Below, in pieces: positions 9,412 through 27,340 of a stretch of DNA of 64,000 nt. Under the pieces are notes generated by a model. That model was not told the DNA's origin and ran no database searches. It saw nothing but the letters and a program-made list of their open reading frames with translations. The translations under genes were made by a program, and so were the position numbers. Source of the DNA: Pseudomonas silesiensis (lineage in GTDB: Bacteria > Pseudomonadota > Gammaproteobacteria > Pseudomonadales > Pseudomonadaceae); contig NZ_CP014870.1 of assembly GCF_001661075.1 (NCBI RefSeq), positions 6,415,501 through 6,479,500 on the forward strand. Direction: 5' to 3'. Position 1 is the first letter of the stretch, and the number at the start of each line of letters is the position of its first letter.

Positions 9412-9452
9412 AAAAAAAACGCCCCGATCATCTCTGATCGGGGCGTTTTTTA
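9412..9452. terminator. Bidirectional intrinsic terminator (mtgA / rpoH)
   Basis: An 11-bp perfect stem (9420-9430 with 9435-9445) and a 4-nt loop, flanked by an A-run on the left and a T-run on the right. It can therefore stop transcription from both convergent genes. Confidence 0.92.
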
Positions 9453-9466
9453 TTGCCGTTCGCAGA

Positions 9467-10321
9467 TTACGCCGCAATCGACAACTTGAGCTTGTTCATC
9501 GCGCTCTTCTCGAGCTGACGAATACGCTCGGCCGACACGTTGTACTTCTGCGCCAGGTCGTGCAGCGTGGCTTTTTCTTCTGCCAGCCAGCGCTGATAGA
9601 GGATGTCGCGGCTGCGGTCGTCCAGCACTTCCAGCGCTTCGTGCAGGTTGTGGTTGGAGTTGTCGCTCCAGTCGGCATCTTCCAGTTGACGGGCCGGGTC
9701 GTACCGGTGGTCTTCCAGATAGTTGGCCGGCGATTGGAAAGCACTGTCGTCGTCCGCTTCCGCGGCCGGGTCGAAGGCCATGTCGTGGCCGGTCAGGCGA
9801 CTTTCCATCTCGCGCACTTCCCGCGGTTCAACACCGAGGCTTTCCGCCACACGGTGGACTTCCTCGTTGTTCAGCCACGCCAGACGTTTCTTTTGGCTGC
9901 GCAGGTTGAAGAACAGCTTGCGCTGGGCTTTGGTGGTCGCGACTTTCACAATGCGCCAGTTGCGCAGGATGAACTCGTGGATTTCCGCCTTGATCCAGTG
10001 CACGGCGAAGGACACCAGGCGCACACCCATTTCCGGGTTGAAGCGTTTCACCGCCTTCATCAAGCCGACATTGCCTTCCTGGATCAGGTCAGCCTGAGCC
10101 AGACCGTAGCCGGAATAGCTACGGGCGATATGTACAACAAAACGCAGGTGGGCGAGCACCATCTGCCGAGCCGCCCCCAAATCCTGCTCATAATAGAGAC
10201 TCTCGGCCAGTTCACGCTCCTGCTCCGGCGTCAGCAATGGAATGCTGTTTACCGTGTGCACATAGGCCTCCAGGTTCGCACCCGGGACCAGAGCATATGC
10301 AGGTTGCAAAGAATTGGTCAT
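9467..10321 (-). CDS. rpoH: RNA polymerase heat-shock sigma factor 32
   Basis: 284 residues from the ATG at 10321, with a GGAGG site about a dozen bases upstream; the longer frame is non-coding leader. Region 2 contains [17 protein letters not shown]. The RpoH box QRKLFFNLR follows at about residue 130, and a C-terminal region 4 helix-turn-helix ends the protein. It directs transcription of heat-shock genes. It lies downstream of ftsX with a 113-bp gap, the conserved ftsYEX-rpoH order. Confidence 0.96.
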
Positions 10322-10434
10322 ACGAAAAAACCTCCGACTTACATAACTCGTGCAGTTCAGCACTGCGAAAATTGACCGGAAACCGAAAGACAAGTTCCCA
10401 TAAACGCTGAAAGGTCAATACGAGCAAAATGATA

Positions 10435-11457
10435 TTACTTTGGCGCAAGCTCCCTCAGGTGGCGTGCGACTGCAATCCATGCACCGATATACCCCAACAG
10501 CACCGCGCCAAGCAAGAGCGACAGACCGTCGGCAACCGGCACGCCGGCCAGTGCGAAATCACTGCCGTACAACCCGGCCAGTCCGACTACCGCGTCGTTC
10601 AGCCAATCCAGACCGAACGCCAGCAAGCCCCATGAAAAAATCCCCGCACCAAAGCCATAAAGCGCCCCCATATACAGAAAGGGCCTGCGCACATAACTGT
10701 CAGTGCCGCCGACAAGTTTAATCACTTCTATCTCTGTGCGGCGGTTTTCAATATGAAGACGAATGGTATTGCCTATCACCAAAAGTAATGCAGAAACCAG
10801 AAGCACGGTCAGACCGAAGACAAAACGGTCACCCAGCTTGAGGATCGCCGCCAAACGCTCGACCCAGACTAGATCAAGTTGCGCCTGTTGTACCTTCGGC
10901 AACTCGGAAAGTTTTTGTCTTAATGCTTCAAGGGCCGGCTTGTCGACTTGGTCCGGGGTCACCAGCACCACGCCTGGCAAGGGGTTGTCCGGCAACTCCT
11001 TGAGCGCTTCGCCCAGGCCGGACTGTTGCTGGAACTCTTCCAGCGCCTGATCGCGGCCGACATATTCGGCCTCCGCGACACCGGGCATACCCTTGATCTG
11101 CTCGCGCAACGCCTCGCCCTCGGTCGGGCTGGCGTCGATTTGCAGGTAGAGGGAAATCTGCGCCGCACGCTGCCAGGAACCGCCGAGACGGTCGACGTTA
11201 CCTAGCAGAAGTGACAGGCCCATGGGCAGGCTGAGGGCAACCGCCATCACCATGCAGGTGAAAAAACTGCCGACCGGTTGCTTGCCCAAGCGACGCAAAC
11301 TATCGAGCAGGCTGGCACGATGGCTTTCGATCCAGGCGCGCAACAGCGTGGCGAAATCCGGACCATCGTCATCGTCGCGTTTTTTCTTCTGCGGTTGCGG
11401 ATCGGCACCCTTGGGCGCTACGCGCTCGGACACCTTGGGGCTGCGTGTCGCACTCAT
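10435..11457 (-). CDS. ftsX: Cell division protein FtsX
   Basis: 340 residues. Permease-like partner of FtsE that controls peptidoglycan amidases at the septum. One helix at about 60-85 is followed by a periplasmic domain and three C-terminal helices, the FtsX topology. The N-terminal ~45 residues are charged and lysine-rich (PQKKKRDDDDG), a cytoplasmic extension common in pseudomonads. It overlaps ftsE by four bases. Confidence 0.95.
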   Translation of the reverse strand: MSATRSPKVSERVAPKGADPQPQKKKRDDDDGPDFATLLRAWIESHRASLLDSLRRLGKQPVGSFFTCMVMAVALSLPMGLSLLLGNVDRLGGSWQRAAQISLYLQIDASPTEGEALREQIKGMPGVAEAEYVGRDQALEEFQQQSGLGEALKELPDNPLPGVVLVTPDQVDKPALEALRQKLSELPKVQQAQLDLVWVERLAAILKLGDRFVFGLTVLLVSALLLVIGNTIRLHIENRRTEIEVIKLVGGTDSYVRRPFLYMGALYGFGAGIFSWGLLAFGLDWLNDAVVGLAGLYGSDFALAGVPVADGLSLLLGAVLLGYIGAWIAVARHLRELAPK

Positions 11458-13717: not shown

Positions 13718-14059
13718 GGAGGACGGCTATCTCACAGTAGCGACGCGCCAACGGCGCCCCGGCAAATAAATATTCGATGCAGAACAGACTGCGATTGATC
13801 CAGCTTGTTCACGCGCAACATTTTATCGAGGTGCAAACGGCACCTTACAAAATCGATTTCACGAAGGACTGAAGCGGTAAAATCGGCGAAAAAGCTCAGT
13901 CTAGTCGATAAAACACAGCCTTTTGCCGCAAACCCATACAACCTGATCAAACGCAAAGGCCTGATAGGCGTGGCCGCCAGTAAAACGGATCAGTATCCTA
14001 GCACCCTCTCGCCCGCTGACGCTAAGAACAAGCGGGCAGCCCCAAAGGTTTAAAAACGA
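13718..14059. other. 342-bp intergenic gap (ftsY / M16 divergent promoters)
   Basis: Divergent spacer with no credible ORF. It is somewhat AT-richer in the middle (13800-13960) and must hold promoters for ftsY (minus) and the M16 pair (plus). No operator, RNA motif or REP was recognised. Confidence 0.5.
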
Positions 14060-15415
14060 ATGAATGCTCTAGCCCGCCGCGCTGCAGGCCTGCTGCTCAG
14101 CACAGTTTGCCTGCCCCTCTCGGCCCTGGCTGCCGACCCGCAACCCACCCACGAATTCACCCTTGATAACGGTCTGAAGGTCGTCGTGCGCGAAGACCAT
14201 CGTGCACCGGTGGTGGTATCCCAAGTCTGGTACAAGGTCGGCTCCAGCTACGAGACCCCGGGTCAGACCGGTCTGTCCCACGCCCTGGAACACATGATGT
14301 TCAAGGGCAGCGAGAAAGTCGGCCCAGGCGAGGCTTCACTGATCCTGCGCGACCTCGGCGCCGAAGAGAACGCGTTCACCAGCGACGACTTCACCGCTTA
14401 TTACCAGGTGCTGGCCCGCGACCGCCTGGGCGTAGCTTTCGAGCTGGAAGCCGACCGCATGGCCAGCCTTCGCCTGCCGCCGGACGAGTTCGCCCGCGAG
14501 ATCGAGGTCATTAAAGAAGAACGCCGCCTGCGCACCGACGACAAGCCGATGTCCAAGGCCTACGAACGTTTCAAGGCCATGGCCTACCCGGCCAGCGGTT
14601 ACCACACGCCGACCATCGGCTGGATGGCGGACCTCGACCGCATGAAGGTCGAAGAACTGCGCCACTGGTACCAGTCCTGGTACGTGCCGAACAATGCCAC
14701 CCTGGTGGTGGTTGGCGACGTGACGCCGGATGAAGTCAAAACCCTGGCCCAACGCTACTTCGGCCCGATCGCCAAGCGAGACGTGCCCGCGGCGAAAATA
14801 CCGCTGGAGCTGGCCGAACCCGGCGAACGCCAGATCACCTTGCACGTGCAGACCCAACTGCCGAGCCTGATGCTGGGCTTCAACGTGCCCAGCATTGCCA
14901 CCGCCGAAGACAAGCGCCCGGTGAATGCCTTGCGCCTGATTTCGGCCCTGCTCGATGGCGGCTACAGCGGTCGCATCCCGACTCAACTGGAACGCGGCGA
15001 AGAACTGGTCTCCGGCGGCTCGTCGAGCTACGACGCCTATACCCGTGGCGACAGCCTGTTCACCCTGTCGGCGACGCCGAACACCCAGAAAAACAAAACC
15101 ATGGCCGAGGTTGAAGCCGGCCTGTGGAAGCTGCTCGAACAGCTGAAAACCACGGCGCCGTCCACCGAAGAACTCGAACGCGTCCGCGCGCAGGTCATTG
15201 CAGGCCTGGTCTACGAGCGCGACTCGATCACCAGCCAGGCCACCGCTATCGGTCAACTGGAAACCGTGGGCCTGTCCTGGAAGCTGATGGACACCGAACT
15301 GGCCGACCTGGAAAGCGTCACTCCGCAAGACATCCAGAACGCCGCCAAGCTGTACTTCACCCGCGAACGTCTCAGCGTCGCCCATGTACTGCCACAGGAG
15401 ACGACTCATGAGTGA
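14060..15415 (+). CDS. M16 family zinc metallopeptidase, catalytic subunit
   Basis: 451 residues. The signal peptide ends in SALAADPQ at about residue 25, so the protein is periplasmic. The zinc motif HALEH is at ~74-78, and the downstream Glu in IKEERR is at ~150-155. It reads as the PqqL/processing-peptidase-like B subgroup. Its stop overlaps the start of a second M16 protein without HxxEH, the usual catalytic/non-catalytic pair. Its C-terminal VAHVLP motif recurs in the unusual M16-like proteins 2 kb downstream. Confidence 0.93.
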   Translation: MNALARRAAGLLLSTVCLPLSALAADPQPTHEFTLDNGLKVVVREDHRAPVVVSQVWYKVGSSYETPGQTGLSHALEHMMFKGSEKVGPGEASLILRDLGAEENAFTSDDFTAYYQVLARDRLGVAFELEADRMASLRLPPDEFAREIEVIKEERRLRTDDKPMSKAYERFKAMAYPASGYHTPTIGWMADLDRMKVEELRHWYQSWYVPNNATLVVVGDVTPDEVKTLAQRYFGPIAKRDVPAAKIPLELAEPGERQITLHVQTQLPSLMLGFNVPSIATAEDKRPVNALRLISALLDGGYSGRIPTQLERGEELVSGGSSSYDAYTRGDSLFTLSATPNTQKNKTMAEVEAGLWKLLEQLKTTAPSTEELERVRAQVIAGLVYERDSITSQATAIGQLETVGLSWKLMDTELADLESVTPQDIQNAAKLYFTRERLSVAHVLPQETTHE

Positions 15416-16898
15416 GCGTAAAAAAACCCGCCTGGCGCTGGCCGGCCTGATCGTCGTCGCACTGATCGGGTCTGCCGCCTTTTACTTTGCCAAGACCGAC
15501 GATTCAAAGGCCGGCGAAGCCCTGGACAAGGCCAAGGCCAGCCAGAAACTGCAATCGCTGGCCGAGCTCGATGGCAAGGCCCCCAGCCGCCGCAGTCTGG
15601 ATGTGCAGACCTGGAACACCGCCGAAGGCGCCAAGGTGCTGTTCGTCGAGGCTCGCGAATTGCCGATGTTCGACCTGCGCCTGATCTTTTCCGCCGGCAG
15701 CAGCCAGGACGCCGACGCGCCGGGCCTGGCCGTACTGACCAACGCCATGCTCAACGAAGGCGTGGCCGGTAAAGATGTCGGCGCCATCGCCCAGGGCTTC
15801 GAAGGCCTGGGCGCGGACTTTGGCAACGGCGCATTCAAGGACATGGCCCTGGCGTCCCTGCGCAGCCTCAGCGCCGCGGACAAACGCGAACCCGCGCTGA
15901 AGCTGTTCGCGGAAGTGGTCGGCAAACCGACCTTCCCTGCCGATTCGTTCGCGCGCATCAAGAACCAGATGCTCGCCGGTTTCGAATACCAGAAGCAAAA
16001 CCCCGGCAAACTGGCCAGCCTGGAACTGATGAACCGGCTCTACGGCGATCACCCGTACGCCCACTCCAGCGATGGCACGGCGAAAACCGTACCGGCGATC
16101 ACCCTGGCCCAACTGAAGGCGTTCCATGAAAAAGCCTACGCCTCCGGCAACGTGGTGATTGCGCTGGTAGGCGACCTGTCCCGCGCCGAAGCCGAGGCGA
16201 TTGCCGCCCAGGTGTCCGGTGCGCTGCCCAAAGGACCGGCCCTGGCGAAGATCCCGCAGCCGGCAGAACCCAAAGCCAGCATCGGCCACATCGAGTTTCC
16301 GTCCAAGCAGACCAACCTGATGCTCGCGCAATTGGGCATCGACCGTGACGATCCGGACTATGCGGCGCTGTCCATGGGCAACCAGATCCTTGGCGGTGGT
16401 GGCTTTGGTACGCGGTTGATGAGCGAAGTGCGCGAGAAGCGTGGCCTGGCCTACGGCGTATACTCGGGCTTCACTCCGATGCAGGCGCGCGGCCCGTTCA
16501 TGATCAATCTGCAAACCCGCGCCGAGATGAGCGAAGGCACACTGAAACTGGTGCAGGATGTACTCGCCGATTACCTCAAGACCGGCCCGACGGAAAAAGA
16601 GCTCGACGACGCCAAGCGCGAACTGGCCGGCAGCTTCCCGCTGTCCACCGCCAGCAACGCCGATATCGTTGGCCAGCTCGGTGCCATGGGCTTCTACAAC
16701 CTGCCATTGAGCTATCTGGAAGACTTCATGCAGCAGTCCCAGAGCCTGACCGTCGAACAGGTCAAAACCGCACTGAACAAACACCTGAGCACGGATAAAC
16801 TGGTCATCGTCAGCGCCGGCCCGACCGTGCCACAAAAGCCGTTACCGGCCCCTTCTGATAAACCTGCCGAGCAACCGCTCGGGGTTCCGGAGCATTAA
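15408..16898 (+). CDS. M16 family peptidase partner subunit (non-catalytic)
   Basis: 496 residues from the ATG at 15408, overlapping the previous gene by 8 bp. An N-terminal helix (LALAGLIVVALIGSAAFYFA) anchors or exports it. There is no HxxEH zinc motif, but the C-terminal half keeps GGGFGTRLMSEVREKRGLAYG, the Arg/Tyr substrate-contact region of M16B partners. It probably forms a heterodimer with the upstream catalytic subunit. The stop overlaps the rsmD start by one base. Confidence 0.92.
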   Translation: MSERKKTRLALAGLIVVALIGSAAFYFAKTDDSKAGEALDKAKASQKLQSLAELDGKAPSRRSLDVQTWNTAEGAKVLFVEARELPMFDLRLIFSAGSSQDADAPGLAVLTNAMLNEGVAGKDVGAIAQGFEGLGADFGNGAFKDMALASLRSLSAADKREPALKLFAEVVGKPTFPADSFARIKNQMLAGFEYQKQNPGKLASLELMNRLYGDHPYAHSSDGTAKTVPAITLAQLKAFHEKAYASGNVVIALVGDLSRAEAEAIAAQVSGALPKGPALAKIPQPAEPKASIGHIEFPSKQTNLMLAQLGIDRDDPDYAALSMGNQILGGGGFGTRLMSEVREKRGLAYGVYSGFTPMQARGPFMINLQTRAEMSEGTLKLVQDVLADYLKTGPTEKELDDAKRELAGSFPLSTASNADIVGQLGAMGFYNLPLSYLEDFMQQSQSLTVEQVKTALNKHLSTDKLVIVSAGPTVPQKPLPAPSDKPAEQPLGVPEH

Positions 16899-17503
16899 TG
16901 GCCACTCGCCCTAAAAAACCCGTCCACAACGTGCATAACGGTGTGAATCAACTGCGCATCATCGGTGGCGAATGGGGCAGCCGAAAGCTGAGCTTCCCCG
17001 ACGCACCGGGTTTGCGCCCGACCCCGGACCGGGTGCGTGAGACCCTGTTCAACTGGCTCGCGCCTTATGTCGCCGGCGCCAAGGTACTTGATCCATTTGC
17101 CGGTAGCGGCGCGTTGTTTCTCGAGGCTTTGTCCCGCGGCGCGGCAATGGGCCAGGCGCTGGACGCCAGCAATATTGCGGTAGCAAGCATCAAGGAGCAT
17201 CTGGGTACCCTGCGCTGCACCACCGGCCAGATTCAGACGGCCGATGCCTTGCGTTATCTGGAAACCCAGACAGCTGTCGAATACGACCTGGTGTTTCTTG
17301 ATCCGCCGTTCAACCAGAACCTGCTGCCGACCGTCTGCACGCTGCTGGAAGAGCGCAAGTGGCTGGCCGACGACGCCTGGATCTACACCGAAAGCGAAAA
17401 CGCGCCATCGTCCCTTGGCCTGCCTGGCAATTGGCGCCTGCACCGGGAGCAAAAATCCGGACGGGTGTACTACGCGTTGTGGCAGCGCGCTCAGATATCT
17501 TGA
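16898..17503 (+). CDS. rsmD: 16S rRNA (guanine966-N2)-methyltransferase RsmD
   Basis: 201 residues. SAM motif I is VLDPFAGSGALFLEALSRGA (~64-83) and the catalytic DPPF (FLDPPFNQN) is at ~134-142. It methylates G966 of 16S rRNA. It is coupled to the M16 pair. The last ~60 bp of the gene are copied downstream at 20071-20128 and, degenerately, at 22701-22745, marking the ends of a tandem duplication. Confidence 0.94.
   Translation: MATRPKKPVHNVHNGVNQLRIIGGEWGSRKLSFPDAPGLRPTPDRVRETLFNWLAPYVAGAKVLDPFAGSGALFLEALSRGAAMGQALDASNIAVASIKEHLGTLRCTTGQIQTADALRYLETQTAVEYDLVFLDPPFNQNLLPTVCTLLEERKWLADDAWIYTESENAPSSLGLPGNWRLHREQKSGRVYYALWQRAQIS
17445..17503 (+). repeat. Boundary repeat copy 1 (rsmD 3' end)
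   Basis: Begins GGGAGCAAAAATCCGGACGG and runs through the rsmD stop. The same sequence reappears 2626 bp downstream and a diverged version appears after the second M16-like gene. Confidence 0.9.
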
Positions 17504-17640
17504 TGCTGAATCGACGCCGCCCCCGTTGAGGGCGCGGCGGACGATTTAATCAGAAAAGTTTATTCGCTAGTTTTAACAGACAGTCCATTAGTATCCTTTT
17601 CAAGCGAAATGACTCGCGCTCAACGAAAAGGAATTTACAC
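17504..17640 (+). promoter_or_regulatory. Leader of M16-like gene 1 (duplicated)
   Basis: 137-bp AT-rich leader ending in AACGAAAAGGAATTTACAC before the ATG. It is almost identical to 20130-20266 before the second gene, so both copies probably keep the same promoter and ribosome site. No promoter elements were assigned with confidence. Confidence 0.6.
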
Positions 17641-20055
17641 ATGACACTTAACACAACACCAATAGAAACAACCTTAAATAATGGACTAAAAATCATTATT
17701 CTGGAACTGCCTCTAGCAGCCGGCGTTACCTGCCTGATCAATTATAACGTCTCCAGCCGTGATGAATCCGTTGAAAATGCCGGTATCAACATTGCATTCA
17801 TCAACACAATGAGCATTGACAACTACGACAATAAATTTGATCGCCCTCGCGTGTTGAACTACGTTAATCACACTGCGCTCAATTTTTCCTTGAACCCTGA
17901 TCAACTGAGTCAATGCTTCGAACTGAATGCCAGGATGATGACGGCTCCCGTCCTTACCGAAAGCACCCTGAAGCGAGGAATTAAATCTCATCTCAAATAT
18001 CGAGCAGATAAACGGCATTTCATGTCGGATGAGTGGATCCCCGTCGAGTTTGATTCAAAGTGTCACCCGATTGGCTATACCTTCGCCCCAATGGTAACTC
18101 CTGAAAGCGCTGCTCGCATGGACATCACGCAATTGCGCCAATGGCATCAACAGTATTACTCACCTGGCAACGCATGCCTGGTCATCGCTGGAAACGTGAA
18201 AGCAGATGAGGTCACGCATCTGGCGAAGCAGCATTTCGATGTTATCCCTTCCAGACCGAAACCTCCGGTTCAGGCGTTGCCACAGCCATGCGAACTGGAC
18301 AGGCGTCATGTGCTGTACAAGGTCACATCGAAGCCCAGGCTGTTGCTGGTGCCTTACATGGCAGGAATGAGCGACGCTTTAGCTGATCAATCAGGCGGCG
18401 CATTGAGCATCCTGTCCATGCTGCTTGATCAAAAACTCGGTACCCTCCCTTCCGTTTCTCACGGGATCTGTCGCTACGAACAAGACAAATACGCAAGTCT
18501 TTTCAGAATTTCCGTCACGGCAAGTACGCGCGATCAATCCCTGGAAGCACTCGAAGCAGACATTGAAACACTGTGGGATGAAATCAAATTCAATCCGCTG
18601 CCCGCGGATGAACTGGAAATGGCCCGCCAACGAGCGCTCGAAAATCTTGCAAAAAGTGATGACCACGAGGGGCTTGCCCTCGAACTGGGTCAACTGGAGA
18701 ATTACCAGATTCCCTTCAGCACGCTCGACCAGAGACAACGTGATTTGCTGAATGTCACGGCGCAGGATATTCAGCGCATCGCGCGCACTTGTTTTTCACC
18801 GCAACGAACGACAGTCGTACATATTTTGCCACTGCAGACGCCCTCATTGGCGACAACGACTAAATTGACACTGGCCAACGGCCTGAAGATCATTACGCTA
18901 GAGAACCCTCGTTCAACCAACGTTGTCTGTGCCATGAATTACAAGGTCAGCAAGCGCGACGAGACCACCGACAACTCGGGGATCACCACTCTTCTTTATG
19001 GCATGTTGGTCAAAGACCCTCATTTCGTAGCGGCGAGGCAATTCGTATTCTGGAATTACAATGATTTCACCCAATGCATTGGTACGTCGGACGTCGACCA
19101 ACTGGAGACAAACTTTAAATCTCTCGCAGGAATAATGAGCACTCCCACCCTGACCGATGAATCCATGAGGCAAGTAATCGATACCGACCTGGAACGGCGA
19201 GCGCGAAATATTTTATTTACTTCCAACTATGCAACGCCCGAATCGTTTGACGCACTGACATTTCCTGTCAGTGGTTATGGCAACCCTGACATGACGCCTG
19301 CAAGCGCTGCACAGATTGATCTCCAACAAGTACAGGATTGGCATCAGAATTTCTTTACTGCCGGTAATTCCTGCCTGGTCATTGTCGGAAACGTGAAAGC
19401 CGCAGCCGTCGAGGCGTTGGCGCGCAAGTATTTCGATGCATTGCCCTGCAGGACCACGACATCTGTTCCAAAGGGGCAGGAAGTCAGTGAGCCGGGCGAG
19501 CGTCGCACTACGCTGCGCATGAACACCAAAACACCCCGACTGTTAGTAGCCTTCAACGTGCCCGGACTGATCGAAGGCGCCACCGATCATTCGGCTGCCA
19601 CACTGCAGATTCTTTCTGCGCTGTTCGAGCTTAAATACGCTGGCCTCCTTCCCGTCTCCAGCGGTGCTTGCATCTTCACTCGGGAGAAGCATGCGGGTCT
19701 TTTCAGGATTTCGCTGACAGCCAACCATGCCGATCAATCCCTGGAAGAACTCGAAACAGCGCTGCTGCAAATCATCGAAGCATGCAAGTTAAGCGGCATC
19801 CCTCAAGAAGAACTGGAGCTGGCGCGCGAGCACGCCATTGCGAAGATCATCTCATTGGCAAGCGATGACGAAATGGTTGCCTATCATCTTTTCCAACTAG
19901 AGGACAGCCAACTTCCGTTAACGCTTCTGGATCAGAAACAGGACAATTTACTGGCTGTCAGCAGTGAGCATATTCAGCGTGCAACCAGCACCTGGCTTAC
20001 GCCTGAACGTATGACGGTTGCACACATCTTGCCTATGCAAGCCCCGAAGCAGTAG
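17641..20055 (+). CDS. Double M16-like pseudopeptidase, copy 1
   Basis: 804 residues made of two M16-like halves (about 1-400 and 405-804). Each half begins TLxNGLKII-type and contains CLVIAGNVKADEV or CLVIVGNVKAAAV, matching the ATLVVVGDVTPDEV segment of the M16 enzyme encoded at 14060. Each half ends VVHILP or VAHILP. The HxxEH zinc motif is gone from both halves (first half reads RDESVENAGINIAF), and the downstream zinc Glu region reads KSHLKYRADK. There is no signal peptide. Codon use is less GC-rich than the neighbours. It is probably not a protease; function unknown. A tandem paralogue follows at 20267. Confidence 0.85.
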   Translation: MTLNTTPIETTLNNGLKIIILELPLAAGVTCLINYNVSSRDESVENAGINIAFINTMSIDNYDNKFDRPRVLNYVNHTALNFSLNPDQLSQCFELNARMMTAPVLTESTLKRGIKSHLKYRADKRHFMSDEWIPVEFDSKCHPIGYTFAPMVTPESAARMDITQLRQWHQQYYSPGNACLVIAGNVKADEVTHLAKQHFDVIPSRPKPPVQALPQPCELDRRHVLYKVTSKPRLLLVPYMAGMSDALADQSGGALSILSMLLDQKLGTLPSVSHGICRYEQDKYASLFRISVTASTRDQSLEALEADIETLWDEIKFNPLPADELEMARQRALENLAKSDDHEGLALELGQLENYQIPFSTLDQRQRDLLNVTAQDIQRIARTCFSPQRTTVVHILPLQTPSLATTTKLTLANGLKIITLENPRSTNVVCAMNYKVSKRDETTDNSGITTLLYGMLVKDPHFVAARQFVFWNYNDFTQCIGTSDVDQLETNFKSLAGIMSTPTLTDESMRQVIDTDLERRARNILFTSNYATPESFDALTFPVSGYGNPDMTPASAAQIDLQQVQDWHQNFFTAGNSCLVIVGNVKAAAVEALARKYFDALPCRTTTSVPKGQEVSEPGERRTTLRMNTKTPRLLVAFNVPGLIEGATDHSAATLQILSALFELKYAGLLPVSSGACIFTREKHAGLFRISLTANHADQSLEELETALLQIIEACKLSGIPQEELELAREHAIAKIISLASDDEMVAYHLFQLEDSQLPLTLLDQKQDNLLAVSSEHIQRATSTWLTPERMTVAHILPMQAPKQ

Positions 20056-20070
20056 TTTGGTCCACAGGCC

Positions 20071-20128
20071 GGGAGCAAAAATCCGGGCGGGTGTACTACG
20101 CGTTGTGACGGCGCGCTCAGATGTCTTG
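20071..20128 (+). repeat. Boundary repeat copy 2 (rsmD 3' end scrap)
   Basis: Starts GGGAGCAAAAATCCGGGCGG and continues as the rsmD tail with scattered changes, including a TGG-to-TGA change in the rsmD frame. It sits between the two M16-like genes and is followed by the duplicated leader. Confidence 0.9.
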
Positions 20129-20129
20129 A

Positions 20130-20266
20130 TGGTGAATCGACGCCGCACCCTTTGAGGGCGCGGCGGACGACTTAATCAGAAAAGTTTATTCGCTAGTTTT
20201 AATAGACAGTCCATTAGTATCCTTTTCAAGCGAAATGACTCGCACCCAACGAAAAGGAATTTGCAC
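20130..20266 (+). promoter_or_regulatory. Leader of M16-like gene 2 (duplicated)
   Basis: Near-identical copy of 17504-17640, including TTATTCGCTAGTTTTAA, CCATTAGTATCCTTTTCAAG and the AACGAAAAGGAATTT ribosome-site region. Confidence 0.6.
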
Positions 20267-22693
20267 ATGATCCTTAACACAACACCAATAGAAACAACCT
20301 TAGATAATGGGCTAAAACTCATTATTCTGGAACTGCCTCAAGCAACCGGTGTTACCTGCCTGGTCAATTACAACGTCTCCAGCCGTGATGAGTCCGTTGA
20401 AAATACCGGTATCAATCAGGTATTCATCAGCACGATGAACAGTGACAATGACGATATTGAATCTCATCGCCCCCAAATAGTGTATTACGTTAATCACACT
20501 TCGCTCAGTTTTTCCATGAAGCCTGATCAACTGAATCATTGCTTCGAACTGAATGCCAGGATGATGACGGTTCCCGTCCTCACCGAAACAACCATGGGGG
20601 AAGTGATAGACATTCACCTCAGATACCGAGCAGACAAACGGTATTTCCTGTCGGACGAGGGGGTTCCCGTCGAATTTAAATCAATATTTGAAACAATGAA
20701 TCACCCGAATGGTTATGCCTACACCCCAATGGCAACCCCTGAAAGCGCTGCTCGCATTGACATCACGCAAATGCGCCAATGGCATCAACGGTATTACTCG
20801 CCTGGTAATGCATGCCTGATCGTCGCTGGAAACGTGAAAGCAGATGAGGTCACGCATCTGGCGAAGCAGCATTTTGATGTTATCCCTTCCAGACCAAAAC
20901 CTCCGGCTCAGGCGTTGCAACAGCCATGCGAACTGGACAGGCGCCATGTGCTGTACAAGGACACATCGAGGCCTAGACTGCTGATGGTACCTTACATGGC
21001 AGGAATGAGAGACGCGTTAGCTGATCAATCAGGCGGCGCGTTGAGCATCCTGTCCACCCTGTTTGAGCAAAAACTCCGTACCCTCCCTTCCGTTTCTCAC
21101 GGAACTTGCCGCTACGACCAAGACAAATACGTAAGTCTTTTCAGTATCTCCGTCTTTGCAAGTACACCCAATCAATCCCTGGAAGTACTCGAGGCAGACA
21201 TTAAAACACTGTGGGATGAAATCAAATTCAATCCCCTGCCCGCAGATGAACTGGAAATAGCCCGCCAACGAGCGCTCGCAACTCTTGTCAAGAGTGATGA
21301 CCACAAGGGGCTTGCCCTCAACATGGGTCAACTGGAAAATTACCAGATTCCCTTCAGCGCGCTCAACCAGAGACAACGTGATTTGCTGAATGTCACGGCG
21401 CAGGACATTCAGCGTATCGCGCGCACTTGTTTTTCACCCCAACGAACGACAGTCGTGCATATGTTGCCACTGCGGATGCCCTCATTGACGACAACCGCCG
21501 AGCTGACATTGAGCAATGGTCTGAAGGTCATGACGCTAGAGAACCCTCACTCAACCAAAGTTGTCTGTGCAATGCATTACAGGGTGAGCAAGCGTGACGA
21601 GTCCACCGACAATTCGGGAATCACCGAGCTTGTTGGCCGAATGCTGGCTACAAACAAACAATACATGGGGACAAAAAAATTCCGATTCTGGAATTACGAT
21701 GATTTCATTCTCTGCGTCATTACCGTCGACCCCGACGAACTGAACAACGCTTTCAAGAGTCTCGCTGGAATAATGGACGCTCCTACCCTGACCATTGAGG
21801 CGATGGGGCAAGTGATGGAAGCCAGCCTGGCGCAGCGAGAGCGAAATCTTTCACTCATTTCTGATTATTCGATTCCCGAAGAGTTTGCAGCACTGGCTTT
21901 CCCGTCAAGTGGCTATGGCAACCTTCCATTAACACCTGAAAGCGCCGCCCAGATTGACCTCAAGCAGGTGCAGGATTGGCATCGAAATTATTTTTGCGCA
22001 AGTAATGCCTGTCTGGTCATTGTCGGAAACGTGAAAGCGGCTGCCGTCGAGCAATGGGGGCAGGAGCATTTCGGTGCCTTGCCCTTGAGGTCGACAACAT
22101 CGGTTCCAAAGGTGCAGGAACTCAGTGAGCCGGGCGTGCGTCGTACTACGTTACGCCTGAACACCAAAGTGCCCTGTTTGTTGGTAGCGTTCAACGTGCC
22201 CGGGCAGATTGACGCCGCCACTGACCCTTCAAGTGCGGCACTGCAAATTATTTCCGACCTGTTCGAACTTAACGGTACGAGGCGTCTTCCTGTTGCTAGA
22301 GGCGCATGCGTCTTCCACCAGGACAAACATGCGGGTGTTTTCCGGATTTCGCTGACAGCAAAGAATGCCGATCAATCCCTGGAAGAACTTGAAACAGCGC
22401 TGCTGCACGTCATTGAAGCCTACAAGTTAAACGGCGCATCTGCAGAAGACCTGGAAATGGTGCGTAGACGAGCGGTTACAAAGATTTTCAGAAGGGAAAC
22501 CAATGACGAAGCTGTAGCCTTTGATCTCTTCCGGCTAGAGGATAGCCAGCTCCCCTTGACACTGCTGGATCAGAGATACGACCGTTTAATGGAGGTCACC
22601 AACGAAGACATCCAGCGTGCCGCCAACACTTATTTCACTCCCGAACGCATGACCGTTGCACATATCTTGCCAATGCAAGCCCCGATGCAATAA
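20267..22693 (+). CDS. Double M16-like pseudopeptidase, copy 2
   Basis: 808 residues from the ATG at 20267; an in-frame TTG two codons earlier is less likely because the ATG matches copy 1. It is a close paralogue of the 17641 protein along its whole length, with the same two-half architecture, VSSRDESVENTGINQVF in place of the zinc motif, and HILPMQAPMQ at the end. The second half has diverged most (KRDESTDNSGITELVG; MGQVMEASLAQRERN). It has an intact frame and no signal peptide. The reading frame looks maintained rather than decaying. Function unknown. Confidence 0.85.
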   Translation: MILNTTPIETTLDNGLKLIILELPQATGVTCLVNYNVSSRDESVENTGINQVFISTMNSDNDDIESHRPQIVYYVNHTSLSFSMKPDQLNHCFELNARMMTVPVLTETTMGEVIDIHLRYRADKRYFLSDEGVPVEFKSIFETMNHPNGYAYTPMATPESAARIDITQMRQWHQRYYSPGNACLIVAGNVKADEVTHLAKQHFDVIPSRPKPPAQALQQPCELDRRHVLYKDTSRPRLLMVPYMAGMRDALADQSGGALSILSTLFEQKLRTLPSVSHGTCRYDQDKYVSLFSISVFASTPNQSLEVLEADIKTLWDEIKFNPLPADELEIARQRALATLVKSDDHKGLALNMGQLENYQIPFSALNQRQRDLLNVTAQDIQRIARTCFSPQRTTVVHMLPLRMPSLTTTAELTLSNGLKVMTLENPHSTKVVCAMHYRVSKRDESTDNSGITELVGRMLATNKQYMGTKKFRFWNYDDFILCVITVDPDELNNAFKSLAGIMDAPTLTIEAMGQVMEASLAQRERNLSLISDYSIPEEFAALAFPSSGYGNLPLTPESAAQIDLKQVQDWHRNYFCASNACLVIVGNVKAAAVEQWGQEHFGALPLRSTTSVPKVQELSEPGVRRTTLRLNTKVPCLLVAFNVPGQIDAATDPSSAALQIISDLFELNGTRRLPVARGACVFHQDKHAGVFRISLTAKNADQSLEELETALLHVIEAYKLNGASAEDLEMVRRRAVTKIFRRETNDEAVAFDLFRLEDSQLPLTLLDQRYDRLMEVTNEDIQRAANTYFTPERMTVAHILPMQAPMQ

Positions 22694-22700
22694 TTTGATC

Positions 22701-22745
22701 CGGGCTGGAAGCAAAAATCCAGATGCAACCCTGACTCGTTGTGGC
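22701..22745 (+). repeat. Boundary repeat copy 3 (degenerate rsmD tail)
   Basis: CGGGCTGGAAGCAAAAATCC followed by ACTCGTTGTGGCAACG resembles the rsmD tail of copies 1 and 2 with many changes. It closes the tandem array before the yheT-like gene. Confidence 0.65.
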
Positions 22746-22825
22746 AACGTATGTCAGAGATCGCCGGTTAACCGACCGACCTGGAAGGTGCGCGCAGGCT
22801 GCGCACCGCTGTATTGAGAGCAATC

Positions 22826-23824
22826 GTGTCCTTTTCGTCAGAACGTTTCAGCCCCGCCTTCGGCCTTGGCAATCCTCACTTGCAGACCTTGTGGGGACCC
22901 TTGTGGCGCAAAACCACCCACATCGAGCGCGAGCGGGAACGATTATGGCTCGAGGACGGGGACTTCCTCGACCTGGACTGGCACGGCCCGCACAGTGCCA
23001 AGGCGCCGTTGGTGCTGGTGCTTCACGGGCTGACCGGTTCGTCGAACTCGCCTTATGTGGCCGGATTGCAAAAGGCCCTGAATGGCCAAGGCTGGGCCAG
23101 CGTTGCGCTGAACTGGCGCGGCTGTTCGGGTGAACCGAATCTGCTGCCACGCAGTTATCACTCCGGTGCCAGTGAAGACCTCGCTGAAGTGATCAAACAC
23201 TTGCAGGCCAAGCGGCCGTTAGCCCCCTTATATGCGGTCGGCTATTCCCTGGGCGGCAACGTCTTGCTCAAGCATCTGGGCGAGAGTGGCCGTGACAGTG
23301 GCGTGCTCGCTGCCGTAGCGGTGTCGGTGCCGTTTCGCCTCGATCAGTGCGCCGACCGTATCGGCCAGGGCTTCTCGAAGCTCTATCAGGCGCATTTCAT
23401 GCGGGAGATGGTGGCCTACATCAAGAATAAGCAACGGCAATTCCAGCAGGACGAGCGCAAGGAGGGGCTGGCGGCCCTGGCGGCCCTGGGCTCACTGGAA
23501 AACATGCGTACGTTCTGGGATTTCGATGGCCGGGTGACCGCACCGCTGCATGGATTTGTCGATGCCCAGGATTATTATCGTCGCGCTTCAAGCCGTTATT
23601 TCCTTGGGGAAATTCGCACGCCGACCCTGATCATCCAGGCAGCTGACGACCCTTTTGTCTTCCCCCATAGCCTGCCGCTGGCAGAAGAGTTATCCGACTG
23701 CATTCAATTCGAGCTGCAGGCCAAGGGCGGGCATGTCGGCTTCGTCGATGGCTCGCTAAGGCAGCCGGGCTACTATCTGGAACGACGCGTTCCTCAGTGG
23801 CTGACCGCTGTGGGGCGTGAGTAA
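22826..23824 (+). CDS. YheT-like alpha/beta hydrolase
   Basis: 332 residues from a GTG at 22826; a TTG four codons earlier is possible. The conserved N-terminal FGLGNPHLQTLWG, the oxyanion-side VLVLHGLTGSSNS, the nucleophile elbow VGYSLGGNVLLKHLGE and the C-terminal KGGHVGFVDG with the catalytic His are all visible. The family (YheT/ABHD1-3-like) holds esterases of uncertain substrate. The stop overlaps the next gene's possible GTG start. Confidence 0.88.
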   Translation: MSFSSERFSPAFGLGNPHLQTLWGPLWRKTTHIERERERLWLEDGDFLDLDWHGPHSAKAPLVLVLHGLTGSSNSPYVAGLQKALNGQGWASVALNWRGCSGEPNLLPRSYHSGASEDLAEVIKHLQAKRPLAPLYAVGYSLGGNVLLKHLGESGRDSGVLAAVAVSVPFRLDQCADRIGQGFSKLYQAHFMREMVAYIKNKQRQFQQDERKEGLAALAALGSLENMRTFWDFDGRVTAPLHGFVDAQDYYRRASSRYFLGEIRTPTLIIQAADDPFVFPHSLPLAEELSDCIQFELQAKGGHVGFVDGSLRQPGYYLERRVPQWLTAVGRE

Positions 23825-23828
23825 GCCG

Positions 23829-24236
23829 ATGCCTACCGAGCAAGGTGAGTCGATACATTTTTGGCAAACGCCACCGCTGGCCGGCAAGGAACACCGGGCG
23901 GTGACCTTGGCCAAGGAGCTGCTGCAAGCGCAATTGTCGGCACCACCCTCCCTGGAAGAGCTCGCTGCAGCGGTGAACCTCTCACCTTTTCACTTCGTCA
24001 GGGTGTTCCGCCGCGCCACCGGCATGCCGCCGCATACCTGGCTGATGCAGCAGCGCATCGCCCGGGCGCGGGCGTTGCTGCAGGGCGGTTGCTTGCCTTT
24101 GGCAGTGGCCACGCAGTTAGGCTTTGCCGACCAGAGTCACCTGAGTCGGCAGTTCAAACAGGTGTACGGGGTCGGGCCGGGGGCGTATCGCAGTGCGTTT
24201 ATTCGCCGGTGGCGACTCCCCGCGCCGGATCGTTGA
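23829..24236 (+). CDS. Short AraC-family transcriptional regulator
   Basis: 135 residues from the ATG at 23829; a GTG at 23817 overlapping the hydrolase stop would add four. Nearly all of it is the double helix-turn-helix AraC domain: LEELAAAVNLSPFHFVRVFRRATGMPPHTWL, then LAVATQLGFADQSHLSRQFKQVYGVGPGAYR. The usual sensing domain is missing, so it may act constitutively or through a partner. It is coupled to the hydrolase gene and converges on the rhodanese gene. Confidence 0.85.
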   Translation: MPTEQGESIHFWQTPPLAGKEHRAVTLAKELLQAQLSAPPSLEELAAAVNLSPFHFVRVFRRATGMPPHTWLMQQRIARARALLQGGCLPLAVATQLGFADQSHLSRQFKQVYGVGPGAYRSAFIRRWRLPAPDR

Positions 24237-25053
24237 TCCACTCGCTCCACGATCCCGCATACAACGCCCCCAACGGATAACCCGCCAGGCACAAGGCGAA
24301 CAGGTTGTGACAAGCCGTCACCCCGGAGCCGCAATACGCCACCAGATCAGTCGGCGAACGATTGCCGAGTTTCGCGGCAAACCGCTGCTTGAGCTGATCG
24401 GCCGGCAGGAAACGCCCGTCGCTGCCCAGGTTGTCGGTGAACGCGGCACATTGCGCACCCGGGATGTGTCCGGCAATCGGGTCTATTGGTTCCACTTCAC
24501 CCTTGAAGCGCGGCAAGGCGCGGGCGTCGAGCAAGGTCAGCGCAGGCTGGCCGAGACGTTGCACAAGTGCTTCGGCGTCTAGGACGAGCGCGTTGTCCGG
24601 CACCCCGGTGAAGGTCCCGCGTTCGATATCGGGCGTATCCAGACTCAGCGGCAAACCTGCCGCGTGCCAGGCCTTGAGCCCGCCATCAAGAATAAACACG
24701 CCATCGCGCTTGCCCAGCCAGGCCAGCAACCACCAGGCCCGCGCCGCGTAGGCACCAGGACCGTCGTCATACAAAACCACATCGCTATCGGCATTGATGC
24801 CCCAGGCTTGCAGGCGTTCGATCAAGTCTTCGGGTTCAGGCAACGGATGACGACCCGTCACGCCTTTGACCACCGTCCCGCTCAAATCACGCTCAAGATC
24901 GGCAAAGCTCGACCCTGCAATATGCCCTTCGGCATAGCTGCGTTGACCGTAGTCCGGGTCTTCCAGGGAATAACGACAATCCAGAATCACCAGCCCTGGC
25001 TGCTCCTTTTTCAGGTCCAACGCTTGCGGGCTGATCAGTTGCGCAATGGGCAT
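24199..25053 (-). CDS. Two-domain sulfurtransferase (rhodanese/3-mercaptopyruvate type)
   Basis: 284 residues with two rhodanese domains. The C-terminal one holds the active cysteine loop YCGSGVTACHN at about residues 234-244. CGSGVTA is the loop commonly seen in SseA-like 3-mercaptopyruvate sulfurtransferases, so that activity is more likely than thiosulfate:cyanide transfer. Its 3' end overlaps the AraC gene by about 38 bp tail to tail. Confidence 0.88.
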   Translation of the reverse strand: MPIAQLISPQALDLKKEQPGLVILDCRYSLEDPDYGQRSYAEGHIAGSSFADLERDLSGTVVKGVTGRHPLPEPEDLIERLQAWGINADSDVVLYDDGPGAYAARAWWLLAWLGKRDGVFILDGGLKAWHAAGLPLSLDTPDIERGTFTGVPDNALVLDAEALVQRLGQPALTLLDARALPRFKGEVEPIDPIAGHIPGAQCAAFTDNLGSDGRFLPADQLKQRFAAKLGNRSPTDLVAYCGSGVTACHNLFALCLAGYPLGALYAGSWSEWINDPARGVATGE

Positions 25054-25092
25054 AACGGGCTCCTGTGATGGCGGTATTCAATCCTGCACTTT

Positions 25093-25764
25093 CTATCCCA
25101 CTTCTTCCAGCGCCTGGGCCAGTGGCACATAAAACTCCTCGAACAGCGCGTTGACCGCCTCGCGGGACTGATCCGTGACGAAGCCGGCTTCCAGCACCAG
25201 CACCTGATAAACACCACGTTTAATAGCTTGTTCGCTCAAGTGGTTGGAGTTTTCCCGCGTGGTACACAGAAAACGCACCCAGGACGTGAGAATGATCCAG
25301 GCGTTGAGGGTCAGGGATTCGATCTGCACCCGGTCCATCTTCAAGATGCCGGCGTCGACGAATCCCTTGTAGATGGCCGTTCCCTGAATCACGCAGCGCT
25401 GGGAAAAGCGTCGGTAACGGGCGGCCAGTTCCGGATCGCTGTCAAGCAAGTGCTCGAGGTCTCGATGCAGAAACCGATAGCGCCACATGGCCGCCAGCAA
25501 TTCCTTGAGGTAGTAACGCTTGTCCTCGACCGTCGCGGCACGGCCCTGGGGCGGGCGCAGGAAACTGTCCACCAGACTTTCGTACTCGCTGAACAGCACG
25601 GCGATGATCGCCTGCTTGTTAGGGAAGTGGTAGTACAGGTTGCCGGGGGAAATTTCCATGTGGGCGGCAATGTGGTTGGTGCTGATACTGCGCTCGCCCT
25701 GCTGATTGAACAGCTCCAGGCTGTTCTGCACGATGCGCTCGCTGGTTTTGATCCTTGGGGCCAT
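25093..25764 (-). CDS. TetR-family transcriptional regulator
   Basis: 223 residues. The N-terminal TetR helix-turn-helix is SERIVQNSLELFNQQGERSI ... SPGNLYYHFPNKQAI (~8-55), followed by a helical ligand domain. It is divergent from the coniferyl aldehyde dehydrogenase gene, with 145 bp between starts, and is a plausible repressor of that cluster. The spacer contains the AT-rich TAGAGTATAGACTCTA dyad at 25858-25873, a candidate operator. Confidence 0.87.
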   Translation of the reverse strand: MAPRIKTSERIVQNSLELFNQQGERSISTNHIAAHMEISPGNLYYHFPNKQAIIAVLFSEYESLVDSFLRPPQGRAATVEDKRYYLKELLAAMWRYRFLHRDLEHLLDSDPELAARYRRFSQRCVIQGTAIYKGFVDAGILKMDRVQIESLTLNAWIILTSWVRFLCTTRENSNHLSEQAIKRGVYQVLVLEAGFVTDQSREAVNALFEEFYVPLAQALEEVG

Positions 25765-25857
25765 GGCTTGAGCTTAAATTCAGAGTGCGGTGACGGGCAT
25801 CTTACGACCTATCCGGACGCGGATAAAAGAAAGCTGCGTCAGATGCCATTTGACTTT

Positions 25858-25873
25858 ATAGAGTATAGACTCT
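25858..25873. promoter_or_regulatory. Candidate operator dyad between tetR and aldDH genes
   Basis: TAGAGTATAGACTCTA is an imperfect palindrome (TAGAGT...ACTCTA) 37 bp before the dehydrogenase start codon. The position suits the divergent TetR regulator. This is inference only. Confidence 0.5.
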
Positions 25874-25909
25874 AAAAAGTTCCTCATAAAAAATAATCCG
25901 GAGCCGACA

Positions 25910-27340
25910 ATGACTGCTGACATTGCCTACCTGCAGAACCTACAGCAGCCCCTGGAAGAACTCCAAGTTTTGTTCGACGCCCAACGTGCGGCGTATGCCG
26001 GCAATCCCATGCCGCCAGCGGCGCAACGCCAGCAATGGCTCAAGGCGCTGCGGGATCTGCTGAGCAACGAACGCCAGGCCTTGATCGATGCGATCGACCA
26101 GGACTTCAGCCATCGCAGCGCCGATGAAACCCTGCTCGCCGAACTGATGCCCAGCCTGCACTGCATCCATTACGCCAGCCAGCACCTCAAAAGCTGGATG
26201 AAAGCGTCACGGCGCAAGGTCGGCGTTGCCTTTCAACCGGCCTCGGCCAAAGTCGTTTATCAACCCTTGGGCGTGGTGGGCGTAATCGTGCCGTGGAACT
26301 ACCCGTTGTACCTGGCTATCGGTCCGCTGGTGGGCGCGTTGTCGGCGGGCAATCGAGTGATGCTCAAGCTCAGCGAATCGACCCCTGCCACCGGCTTGCT
26401 GCTCAAGGAACTGCTGGGGCGTATCTTTCCCCAGGACCTGGTTTGCGTGGTGCTGGGCGAAACCGACATCGGCGTGGCCTTCTCCCGGCTGCGCTTCGAT
26501 CACCTGCTGTTCACCGGCGCCACCAGCGTCGGCAAACAGGTGATGCGCGCGGCTGCCGAGAACCTGACACCGGTGACCCTTGAGCTGGGCGGAAAGTCTC
26601 CGGCCATCGTCTCTCGCGATGTGCCCCTCAAGGATGCCGCCGAACGCATCGCTTTCGGCAAGACGCTCAACGCTGGACAAACCTGCGTGGCCCCGGACTA
26701 CGTGCTGGTGCCGGAAGATCGCGTGGGTTCCTTCGTCGAGGCCTATCGCCAGGCCGTTCGCGGATTTTATCCGACCCTGGTGGACAACCCGGACTACACC
26801 GCGATCATCAATGAACGACAACTGCAGCGGCTCAATGGATACCTGAGCGACGCCACCAGCAAAGGCGCGTTGCTCATTCCTTTGTTCGATCAGGGCCAGG
26901 GCCGGCGCATGGGCCACAGCCTGCTGCTCAACGTCACTGACGAAATGACGGTGATGCAAGACGAGATCTTCGGCCCGTTGCTGCCGATCGTGCCCTACAA
27001 GGATCTGGACGAAGCGTTTGCCTACATCAATCGACGACCTCGTCCTCTGGCCCTGTATTACTTCGGCTACGACAAGCGTGAGCAAAACCGCGTGCTCAGC
27101 GAGACCCATTCCGGTGGGGTCTGCCTGAACGACACGCTGCTGCATGTCGCTCAGGACGATATGCCCTTCGGCGGCATTGGTGCTTCCGGCATGGGTCATT
27201 ACCACGGCCACGAAGGTTTCCTGACCTTCAGCAAGGCCAAGGGAGTGCTGATCAAACAACGCTTCAACGCGGCGAAACTGATCTACCCGCCCTACGGCAA
27301 ATCCATTCAAAAACTGATTCAGAAGCTGTTTATCCGCTAA
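25910..27340 (+). CDS. calB: Coniferyl aldehyde dehydrogenase-like ALDH
   Basis: 476 residues, NAD(P)-dependent aldehyde dehydrogenase. Present are VIVPWNYPLYLAIGPLVGAL (~124-143), LFTGATSVGKQV, the Glu motif TLELGGKSPAI (~223-233) and the catalytic Cys in NAGQTCVAPDY (~256-266). The C-terminal YPPYGK is typical of the CalB/fatty-aldehyde-type subgroup. The substrate is inferred from family naming; other aryl or fatty aldehydes are possible. First gene of a cluster with a Tat lipoprotein and a GMC oxidoreductase. Confidence 0.87.
   Translation: MTADIAYLQNLQQPLEELQVLFDAQRAAYAGNPMPPAAQRQQWLKALRDLLSNERQALIDAIDQDFSHRSADETLLAELMPSLHCIHYASQHLKSWMKASRRKVGVAFQPASAKVVYQPLGVVGVIVPWNYPLYLAIGPLVGALSAGNRVMLKLSESTPATGLLLKELLGRIFPQDLVCVVLGETDIGVAFSRLRFDHLLFTGATSVGKQVMRAAAENLTPVTLELGGKSPAIVSRDVPLKDAAERIAFGKTLNAGQTCVAPDYVLVPEDRVGSFVEAYRQAVRGFYPTLVDNPDYTAIINERQLQRLNGYLSDATSKGALLIPLFDQGQGRRMGHSLLLNVTDEMTVMQDEIFGPLLPIVPYKDLDEAFAYINRRPRPLALYYFGYDKREQNRVLSETHSGGVCLNDTLLHVAQDDMPFGGIGASGMGHYHGHEGFLTFSKAKGVLIKQRFNAAKLIYPPYGKSIQKLIQKLFIR

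Follow-up and report, generated by a model that had tools for sequence, protein, structure and literature searches.

M16-derived genes of strain-dependent content between rsmD and a hydrolase gene in Pseudomonas silesiensis and some of its relatives

We analyzed a 64,000-nucleotide stretch of Pseudomonas silesiensis DNA (NZ_CP014870.1, positions 6,415,501 to 6,479,500; the window), in which two tandem genes, here called dblA and dblB, lie between rsmD and a gene for an alpha/beta hydrolase. Both genes derive from the M16 peptidase family; their products have a predicted M16 fold, have lost the zinc motif and have kept open reading frames, and the M16-derived content of this site varies between closely related strains. 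We favor, with a confidence slightly above even, the explanation that the content of the rsmD-hydrolase junction varies and is drawn from the genes just upstream of it, the resident M16a and M16b. A previous sequence-only reading had described an array of two double M16-like genes. The array is present, but this picture is incomplete, because the array is one allele of a locus with M16-derived content that differs between close strains.

The repeat reported in that reading was borne out. The sequence GGGAGCAAAAATCCGG occurs at 17445 and at 20071, a spacing of 2626 bp, and positions 17443-17742 and 20069-20368 are 93% identical without gaps at the same spacing; the upstream stretches of the two genes are thus similar, as claimed. 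Further into the genes the spacing is 2638 (18049-18348 versus 20687-20986, 90% identical, ungapped), because dblB is four codons longer. The repeat of the rsmD end by itself measures 101 nt (93% identity, E-value 2.8e-40), which excludes chance. The two genes are indeed close paralogs, with 72% identity between their products, and neither contains an internal stop; the start of dblB was taken at 20267, while a mechanical list of open reading frames (ORFs) begins 6 bases earlier, at TTG. A repeat unit made of the rsmD end, leader and gene is also supported. A third scrap, which had been seen behind the second gene, is real but does not represent a decayed third unit. Its similarity to the empty locus L033 (79.8% over 22707-22844) runs through the native rsmD stop and the intergenic DNA into the hydrolase gene. 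Since the scrap continues into the native junction, as in insert-free strains, it is the original end of rsmD.

The same junction was compared in the best 80 of 402 named Pseudomonas loci by rsmD similarity, which means that near relatives were sampled. The gap is short in 59 of the 80 loci, with the hydrolase start 44-170 bp past rsmD; 21 loci contain an insert that places this start 1.4-6.7 kb past rsmD. All 21 inserts are M16-derived. Twelve loci carry an old active pair, M16a'-M16b', with about 60% DNA identity to the resident genes. Young copies (78-79% identity) occur in L057 (fused, 918 residues) and L079 (two frames); these begin at about codon 28-31 of M16a and are therefore devoid of the signal peptide. 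In L064 a pair is accompanied by a fused copy (71%), in L063 by a single; L040 has one double. One dead single each was found in L032, L067 and L108, and two dead singles in L065. Six further genomes, which were fetched because they matched, all contain an M16 insert between rsmD and the hydrolase gene. Among matches listed in open-licence PMC text, nothing concerning the locus was found by title or start of the abstract. At least two M16 matches at an E-value of 1e-50 were counted by eye in 33 of 298 genus genomes, a number for which the place was not checked in all cases and which may include some assembly doubles. In another Pseudomonas (G007:C5:115832-121608) several M16 matches stand in a row, suggesting a site with three or more M16 pairs.

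The 3' end of rsmD bears on the origin of the inserts. In empty loci rsmD mostly ends with LWQRMAEIAG or near it, and short intergenic DNA and the hydrolase gene follow. In filled loci the tail changes after LWQR or LWHR, and the final residues are widely different (window, loci L032-L111). In a separate set of 21 loci, to which the window belongs, 10 (again with the window) have a piece of the rsmD end between units or farther to the right. These remnants have a length of 213 nt in L079, 109 nt in L064, 89 nt in each of L057, L151 and L152, 70 nt in L156, 67 and 65 nt in the window, 62 nt in L065, 38 nt in L040 and 22 nt in L032. L079 is the clearest case: a copy colinear with M16a-M16b precedes the final 213 nt of rsmD, which have 93% identity with the DNA behind them included. 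An M16b-like frame of this locus (ORF 9451-10881) enters the 213-nt remnant and terminates at the remnant's stop; it is an in-frame fusion left by deletion of the front of the second rsmD. Such remnants, 22-213 nt long, suggest that M16a-M16b-rsmD was duplicated in tandem in an ancestor and that the second rsmD was then eroded from its 5' side. The earlier suggestion that a local duplication had carried along part of rsmD stands with respect to the local duplication; however, the longer remnants (213, 109 and 89 nt) and the colinear M16a-M16b copies in relatives indicate that the first event most likely took M16a-M16b-rsmD and not just part of rsmD.

Altered rsmD tails after LWQR or LWHR and rsmD pieces behind the insert would also be expected from mobile cassettes, which a site-specific recombinase inserts at the 3' end of rsmD and for which the scraps are attachment sites. 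We regard this as extremely improbable. The cargo is derived from M16 genes next to the site; apart from the two dbl genes the window has no ORF between rsmD and the hydrolase gene, and positions 14000-26000 contain no inverted repeat of 30 bp or longer. Remnants of up to 213 nt and an M16b-like frame ending at the stop of the rsmD remnant in L079 also speak against cassettes, and no phage match was found. When the longest ORFs without mutual overlap were taken from each insert, all proved to be M16 genes or to run antisense to such genes; a recombinase traveling with the cargo, as in an integrative element, was not found among them.

In the scheme that we favor, M16a minus its signal peptide would have been duplicated in tandem along with M16b and rsmD in an ancestor. 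This would have placed a signal-peptide-less M16 copy behind rsmD, and the redundant second rsmD would have eroded to a 3' scrap. One line may then have lost its M16b half as well as the zinc site and R/Y pair; the leftover M16a unit would have been duplicated and fused to the 800-residue double, which in the window was presumably duplicated again along with the rsmD-end repeat. Strain content could differ via recombination in the flanking genes, via differential loss from larger arrays or via both, and halves may have been shuffled between alleles. A chromosomal site of this kind would make new genes from its own neighbors, and living strains would still contain the likely intermediates, namely an active pair, a signal-peptide-less copy, a dead single, tandem singles, a dead double and tandem doubles.

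The variation is evident between close strains. The DNA of M16a-M16b is 95-97% identical among the window, L032, L040 and L065; the inserts of these four differ in type or share no more than 60% identity. In L065 the final 400 bp of rsmD have 84% identity to the window and 84-85% to the other strains compared. Over hydrolase codons 12-330 the window is 87-89% identical to L040, L065 and L035, where M16a is 94-96% identical, and 97% identical to L032; this comparison of junctions leaves aside the rsmD rows of L040 and L065, which a gap had put out of register. Identity is reduced next to some inserts, which suggests that strains exchanged them through homologous recombination; a serious alternative is differential loss, each strain having kept other parts of a larger array. 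In its pure form, a long ancestral M16 array from which each strain lost other members without any exchange, this alternative is quite unlikely in our view. It is consistent with the multi-unit loci L063, L064, L065, L153 and L154, with direct rsmD-end repeats that would permit deletion, and with the flanks of window and L032, which are 97% identical on both sides. It does not account well for the rsmD end of L065, which has a low identity to all seven strains compared, or for the mosaic proteins P0002 and P0005 described below. It also disagrees with the distribution of old pairs on the host tree, where this label is no more clustered than in shuffles (231/500). The label filled or empty, on the other hand, requires 13 changes on the host tree (shuffled mean 19.5, 0 of 500 as low); it is clustered, and hence there is some vertical inheritance.

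A comparison of the two copies, which the sequence-only reading had proposed, gave a nonsynonymous divergence (dN) of 0.173 and a synonymous divergence (dS) of 0.406, meaning purifying selection overall. It did not sustain the idea that the pair is simple and recent: codons 1-420 have a dS of 0.16-0.32, codons 421-804 one of 0.54-1.27, and dblA and dblB are themselves mosaic. At positions that distinguish A from B, P0002 follows A in 46 cases and B in 15 within residues 1-300, A in 8 and B in 53 within residues 401-600, and is mixed thereafter. P0005 is A-like in residues 1-150, B-like in 151-300 and A-like past 400; its sequence stems from a metagenome and may have been joined wrongly in assembly. 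A recent and simple tandem duplication, confined to one gene and to this strain, would explain why the units share 86-94% identity in the leader and over most of the first half. It is contradicted in this simple form by the dS of the second halves, by the occurrence of a dblA-like (P0001) and a dblB-like protein (P0004) elsewhere, and by other strains, in which this site holds one double or tandem singles; we consider it highly improbable.

Each dbl gene is composed of two fused M16 halves, and in the tree all halves group on the M16a (PA0372-like) side, with resident M16a as their nearest resident kin. The trees are quick IQ-TREE runs, in which the singles L067, L108 and L063 form long branches. 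At the Pfam cut-offs dblA and dblB match only PF05193 (M16_C), in two stretches each; PF00675 is unmatched in both. The zinc motif HxxEH, the mark of an active M16 peptidase, is missing in all four dblA/dblB halves, in 20/20 dbl halves (18 distinct) and in 6/6 singles. Missing from the same 20 halves and six singles is the R/Y motif RGLxY of the inactive subunit in M16B heterodimers, which is kept in 26/26 resB/insB/fus2 sequences (the counts of 20, 6 and 26 were made by eye). The dblA protein has no hydrophobic leader, as read from its sequence, and starts 11 residues ahead of the LNNGLK strand; it thus lacks the signal peptide found on the active subunit of the PA0371-PA0372 pair. An AlphaFold2 model with 47 sequences predicts the M16 clamshell domain with confidence; it replaced a run with 11 sequences, in which the predicted local distance difference test score (pLDDT) was 61. 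On the strength of the predicted fold, the lost zinc motif and a frame under purifying selection, the doubles can be classified as putative M16 pseudopeptidases.

The family is rare. At an E-value of 1e-60 it was detected in 1 of 398 genus genomes, which is the source genome (G000) itself, and a scan of genome contigs with dblA found no relative. A protein collection, in which scoring was confined to the 7992 candidates with the most words in common, contained 10 relatives (E-value <1e-200, 53-94% identity); nine are 801-808 residues long and one has 616 residues. None of seven proteins matched the PADLOC models of anti-phage defence at an E-value of 0.01, which leaves room for a defensive role not yet described. 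Plasmid records gave 41 matches, all below 60% identity. These distant M16 relatives come in 30 of the 41 records from Sinorhizobium, Rhizobium or Mesorhizobium.

The doubles vary along their length in a pattern that differs from that of M16a. Compared with L040, dN/dS is 0.24 and 0.32 for the two doubles at a dS of 1.0-1.2. Residues 49-84 and 448-483, which correspond to the zinc-motif helix of M16a and the following strands, have mean pairwise differences of 0.589 and 0.614 versus 0.391 overall; 20 and 10 of 768 alignment segments are as variable. In resident M16a (n=81) the matching residues 68-118, aligned by eye, differ by 0.005 versus 0.037 overall. The former active-site region is the least variable of five segments in M16a and among the most variable in the doubles.

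These data have to be weighed against the view that the doubles are relaxed relics, i.e. that redundant M16 copies often arise, drift, lose catalysis and are deleted without having a present role. The 59 empty loci, the lower G+C content at third codon positions of the doubles (0.55-0.56, compared with 0.79 for M16a) and the lack of any dN/dS >1 agree with this view. It is more difficult to reconcile with two 800-codon frames that are open at a dS of 0.4, with the low dN/dS relative to L040, with a confident M16 fold model and a conserved shape of the leader hairpin, and with ten relatives of largely constant length. We judge it unlikely, if still worth serious attention.

The leaders of the dead and fused units share the bases GCGAA, then about five bases, then TCGC (12/12 aligned), and in their predicted folds the Shine-Dalgarno stretch is paired with an upstream strand. 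They matched only other inserts among 81 loci; the DNA upstream of M16a was unmatched. The leader motif of fused and single units occurs in 4 of 398 genus genomes. Covariation was scored in 14 gap-free leaders (12 distinct), a set without those of the window and L040, which pair in another register. Pairing cells make up 74.1% versus 24-44% when slid, and the covariation score is 0.183 versus 0.041-0.103 slid, with 8/500 shuffles as high. Pairs changed on both sides were as frequent in 30/500 shuffles, and further pair types in 83/500. Rfam gave no match at an E-value of up to 1 over 17380-22850, and promoter and terminator scans no excess over shuffles. A regulon defined by GCGAAAYDACTCGC was ruled out; its two sites in G000, at 17604 and 20230, are both within the window leaders. 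Old pairs have a different leader hairpin (L034:8670-8740 and other old-pair loci), in which AGTGGTTTACG pairs with CGTAAACCACT beside the ribosome-binding site; the fold z-score is -6.29 in L034.

We infer a cytosolic location, peptide binding and a role in recognition for the doubles. Their most likely role, proposed tentatively, would be that of cytosolic clamshells that bind a variable peptide or protein without cutting it, as a sponge, decoy or immunity-type factor. Specificity would come from the former active-site region, and translation would be limited by the leader hairpin over the ribosome-binding site. A bolder version, which we think unlikely, sees in the locus a bacterial peptide-recognition repertoire. 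Dead clamshells, born by duplication of a neighboring protease and without signal peptide or catalysis, would vary in the former substrate cleft. Strains would exchange them as immunity-type factors, the target being a peptide or protein that diversifies (a bacteriocin, a phage protein or a peptide of a host), and the leader would sequester the Shine-Dalgarno stretch. At this locus a protease family would have turned into a variable set of non-catalytic clamshells, a concrete target for the question of binding.

Several observations count against our interpretation of origin, exchange and role. No rsmD scrap was found in 5/5 old-pair loci tested, nor in L063, L067, L108, L153, L154 and L155; a single origin of all inserts is therefore only inferred. 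The hydrolase gene has identities of 0.82-0.84 to distant strains where M16a has 0.91-0.92, about twice as fast a divergence; it is a faster gene, and the footprint on the right-hand side is therefore only a modest excess. The window and L032 are 97% identical on both sides of quite different inserts, a situation that differential loss could explain too. Between dblA and dblB, dN/dS is 0.64 in both cleft regions and nowhere >1, and the variable cleft may therefore reflect relaxed constraint after catalysis was lost. Covariation in the leader hairpin is modest, with 8/19 pairs retained by RNAalifold, and most of the sampled loci (59/80) do without an insert.

Passages of PMC12731061 and PMC11266112 describe inactive M16 subunits, which pair with active ones, and single-chain M16B enzymes. 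With such partners and the shared fold in mind, the doubles might act on the resident M16a-M16b peptidase by binding it, either to regulate or to inhibit it. However, M16a has a signal peptide and the doubles, as read from sequence, have none, so that different compartments are expected, and the R/Y motif is lost; this role is very unlikely. The doubles differ from the heterodimeric zinc protease PA0371-PA0372 (PDB 4nnz; PDB 3gwb, an inactive M16 domain protein of P. fluorescens) in having two M16a-type halves in one chain without HxxEH, R/Y or signal peptide. The single-chain M16B peptidases FusC and PqqL, the top Foldseek matches by E-value, likewise have two M16 halves per chain, but they are periplasmic and possess the active-site motif according to passages of PMC12731061. 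The M16 pseudopeptidases alpha-MPP and the core proteins of yeast complex III are fixed subunits of one complex, whereas the doubles are strain-variable. Another accessory M16 protein of a plant-associated bacterium is the rhizobial peptidase acting on host NCR peptides, described in parts of PMC8175422 and PMC12731061. This enzyme is catalytic, which the doubles are not predicted to be. We take it to be the protein named HrrP. HrrP is plasmid-borne and is not known to derive from a duplication at rsmD.

The coordinates of the features are compiled in Table 1, in which those of the leaders were reckoned from motif position and RNA fold.

Table 1. Features of the M16 region in the window, in order of position.
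Feature	Position	Strand	Basis
M16a, resident active subunit resembling PA0372; HALEH at residue 74, signal peptide as read from sequence	14060..15415	+	Pfam PF00675+PF05193, motif alignment
M16b, resident inactive partner subunit with R/Y motif REKRGLAY	15384..16898	+	Pfam, motif alignment
rsmD, intact, altered tail LWQRAQIS	16898..17503	+	TIGR00095; tail comparison of empty and filled loci
dblA leader	17504..17640	+	RNA fold z-score -2.90, motif position, similar hairpins in relatives
dblA leader, hairpin 3' of rsmD stop	17507-17548	+	predicted fold
dblA leader, predicted hairpin with Shine-Dalgarno stretch	17594-17601 pairs with 17625-17632; inner stem-loop 17604-17617	+	
dblA, putative 804-residue double M16 pseudopeptidase, without signal peptide	17641..20055	+	
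Internal rsmD 3'-end scrap between units, overlapping start of dblB leader	20069..20141	+	79.7% to empty-locus rsmD end, E-value 4e-11; 93% to rsmD end of window
dblB leader, 94% identical to dblA leader	20130..20266	+	RNA fold z-score -2.76
dblB, putative 808-residue double M16 pseudopeptidase	20267..22693	+	Pfam, tree, motif alignment
Terminal scrap, displaced original rsmD 3' end	22707..22771	+	similarity to empty locus L033; empty junctions
Native intergenic DNA after terminal scrap	22772-22813	+	likeness to empty loci
Alpha/beta hydrolase gene, right neighbor of rsmD in empty loci	22814..23824	+	Pfam; 80 loci

M16a matches PDB 4nnz (E-value 3.7e-212), an entry titled as the PA0372 subunit of the heterodimeric zinc protease PA0371-PA0372, and M16b has the make-up of the inactive partner subunit.

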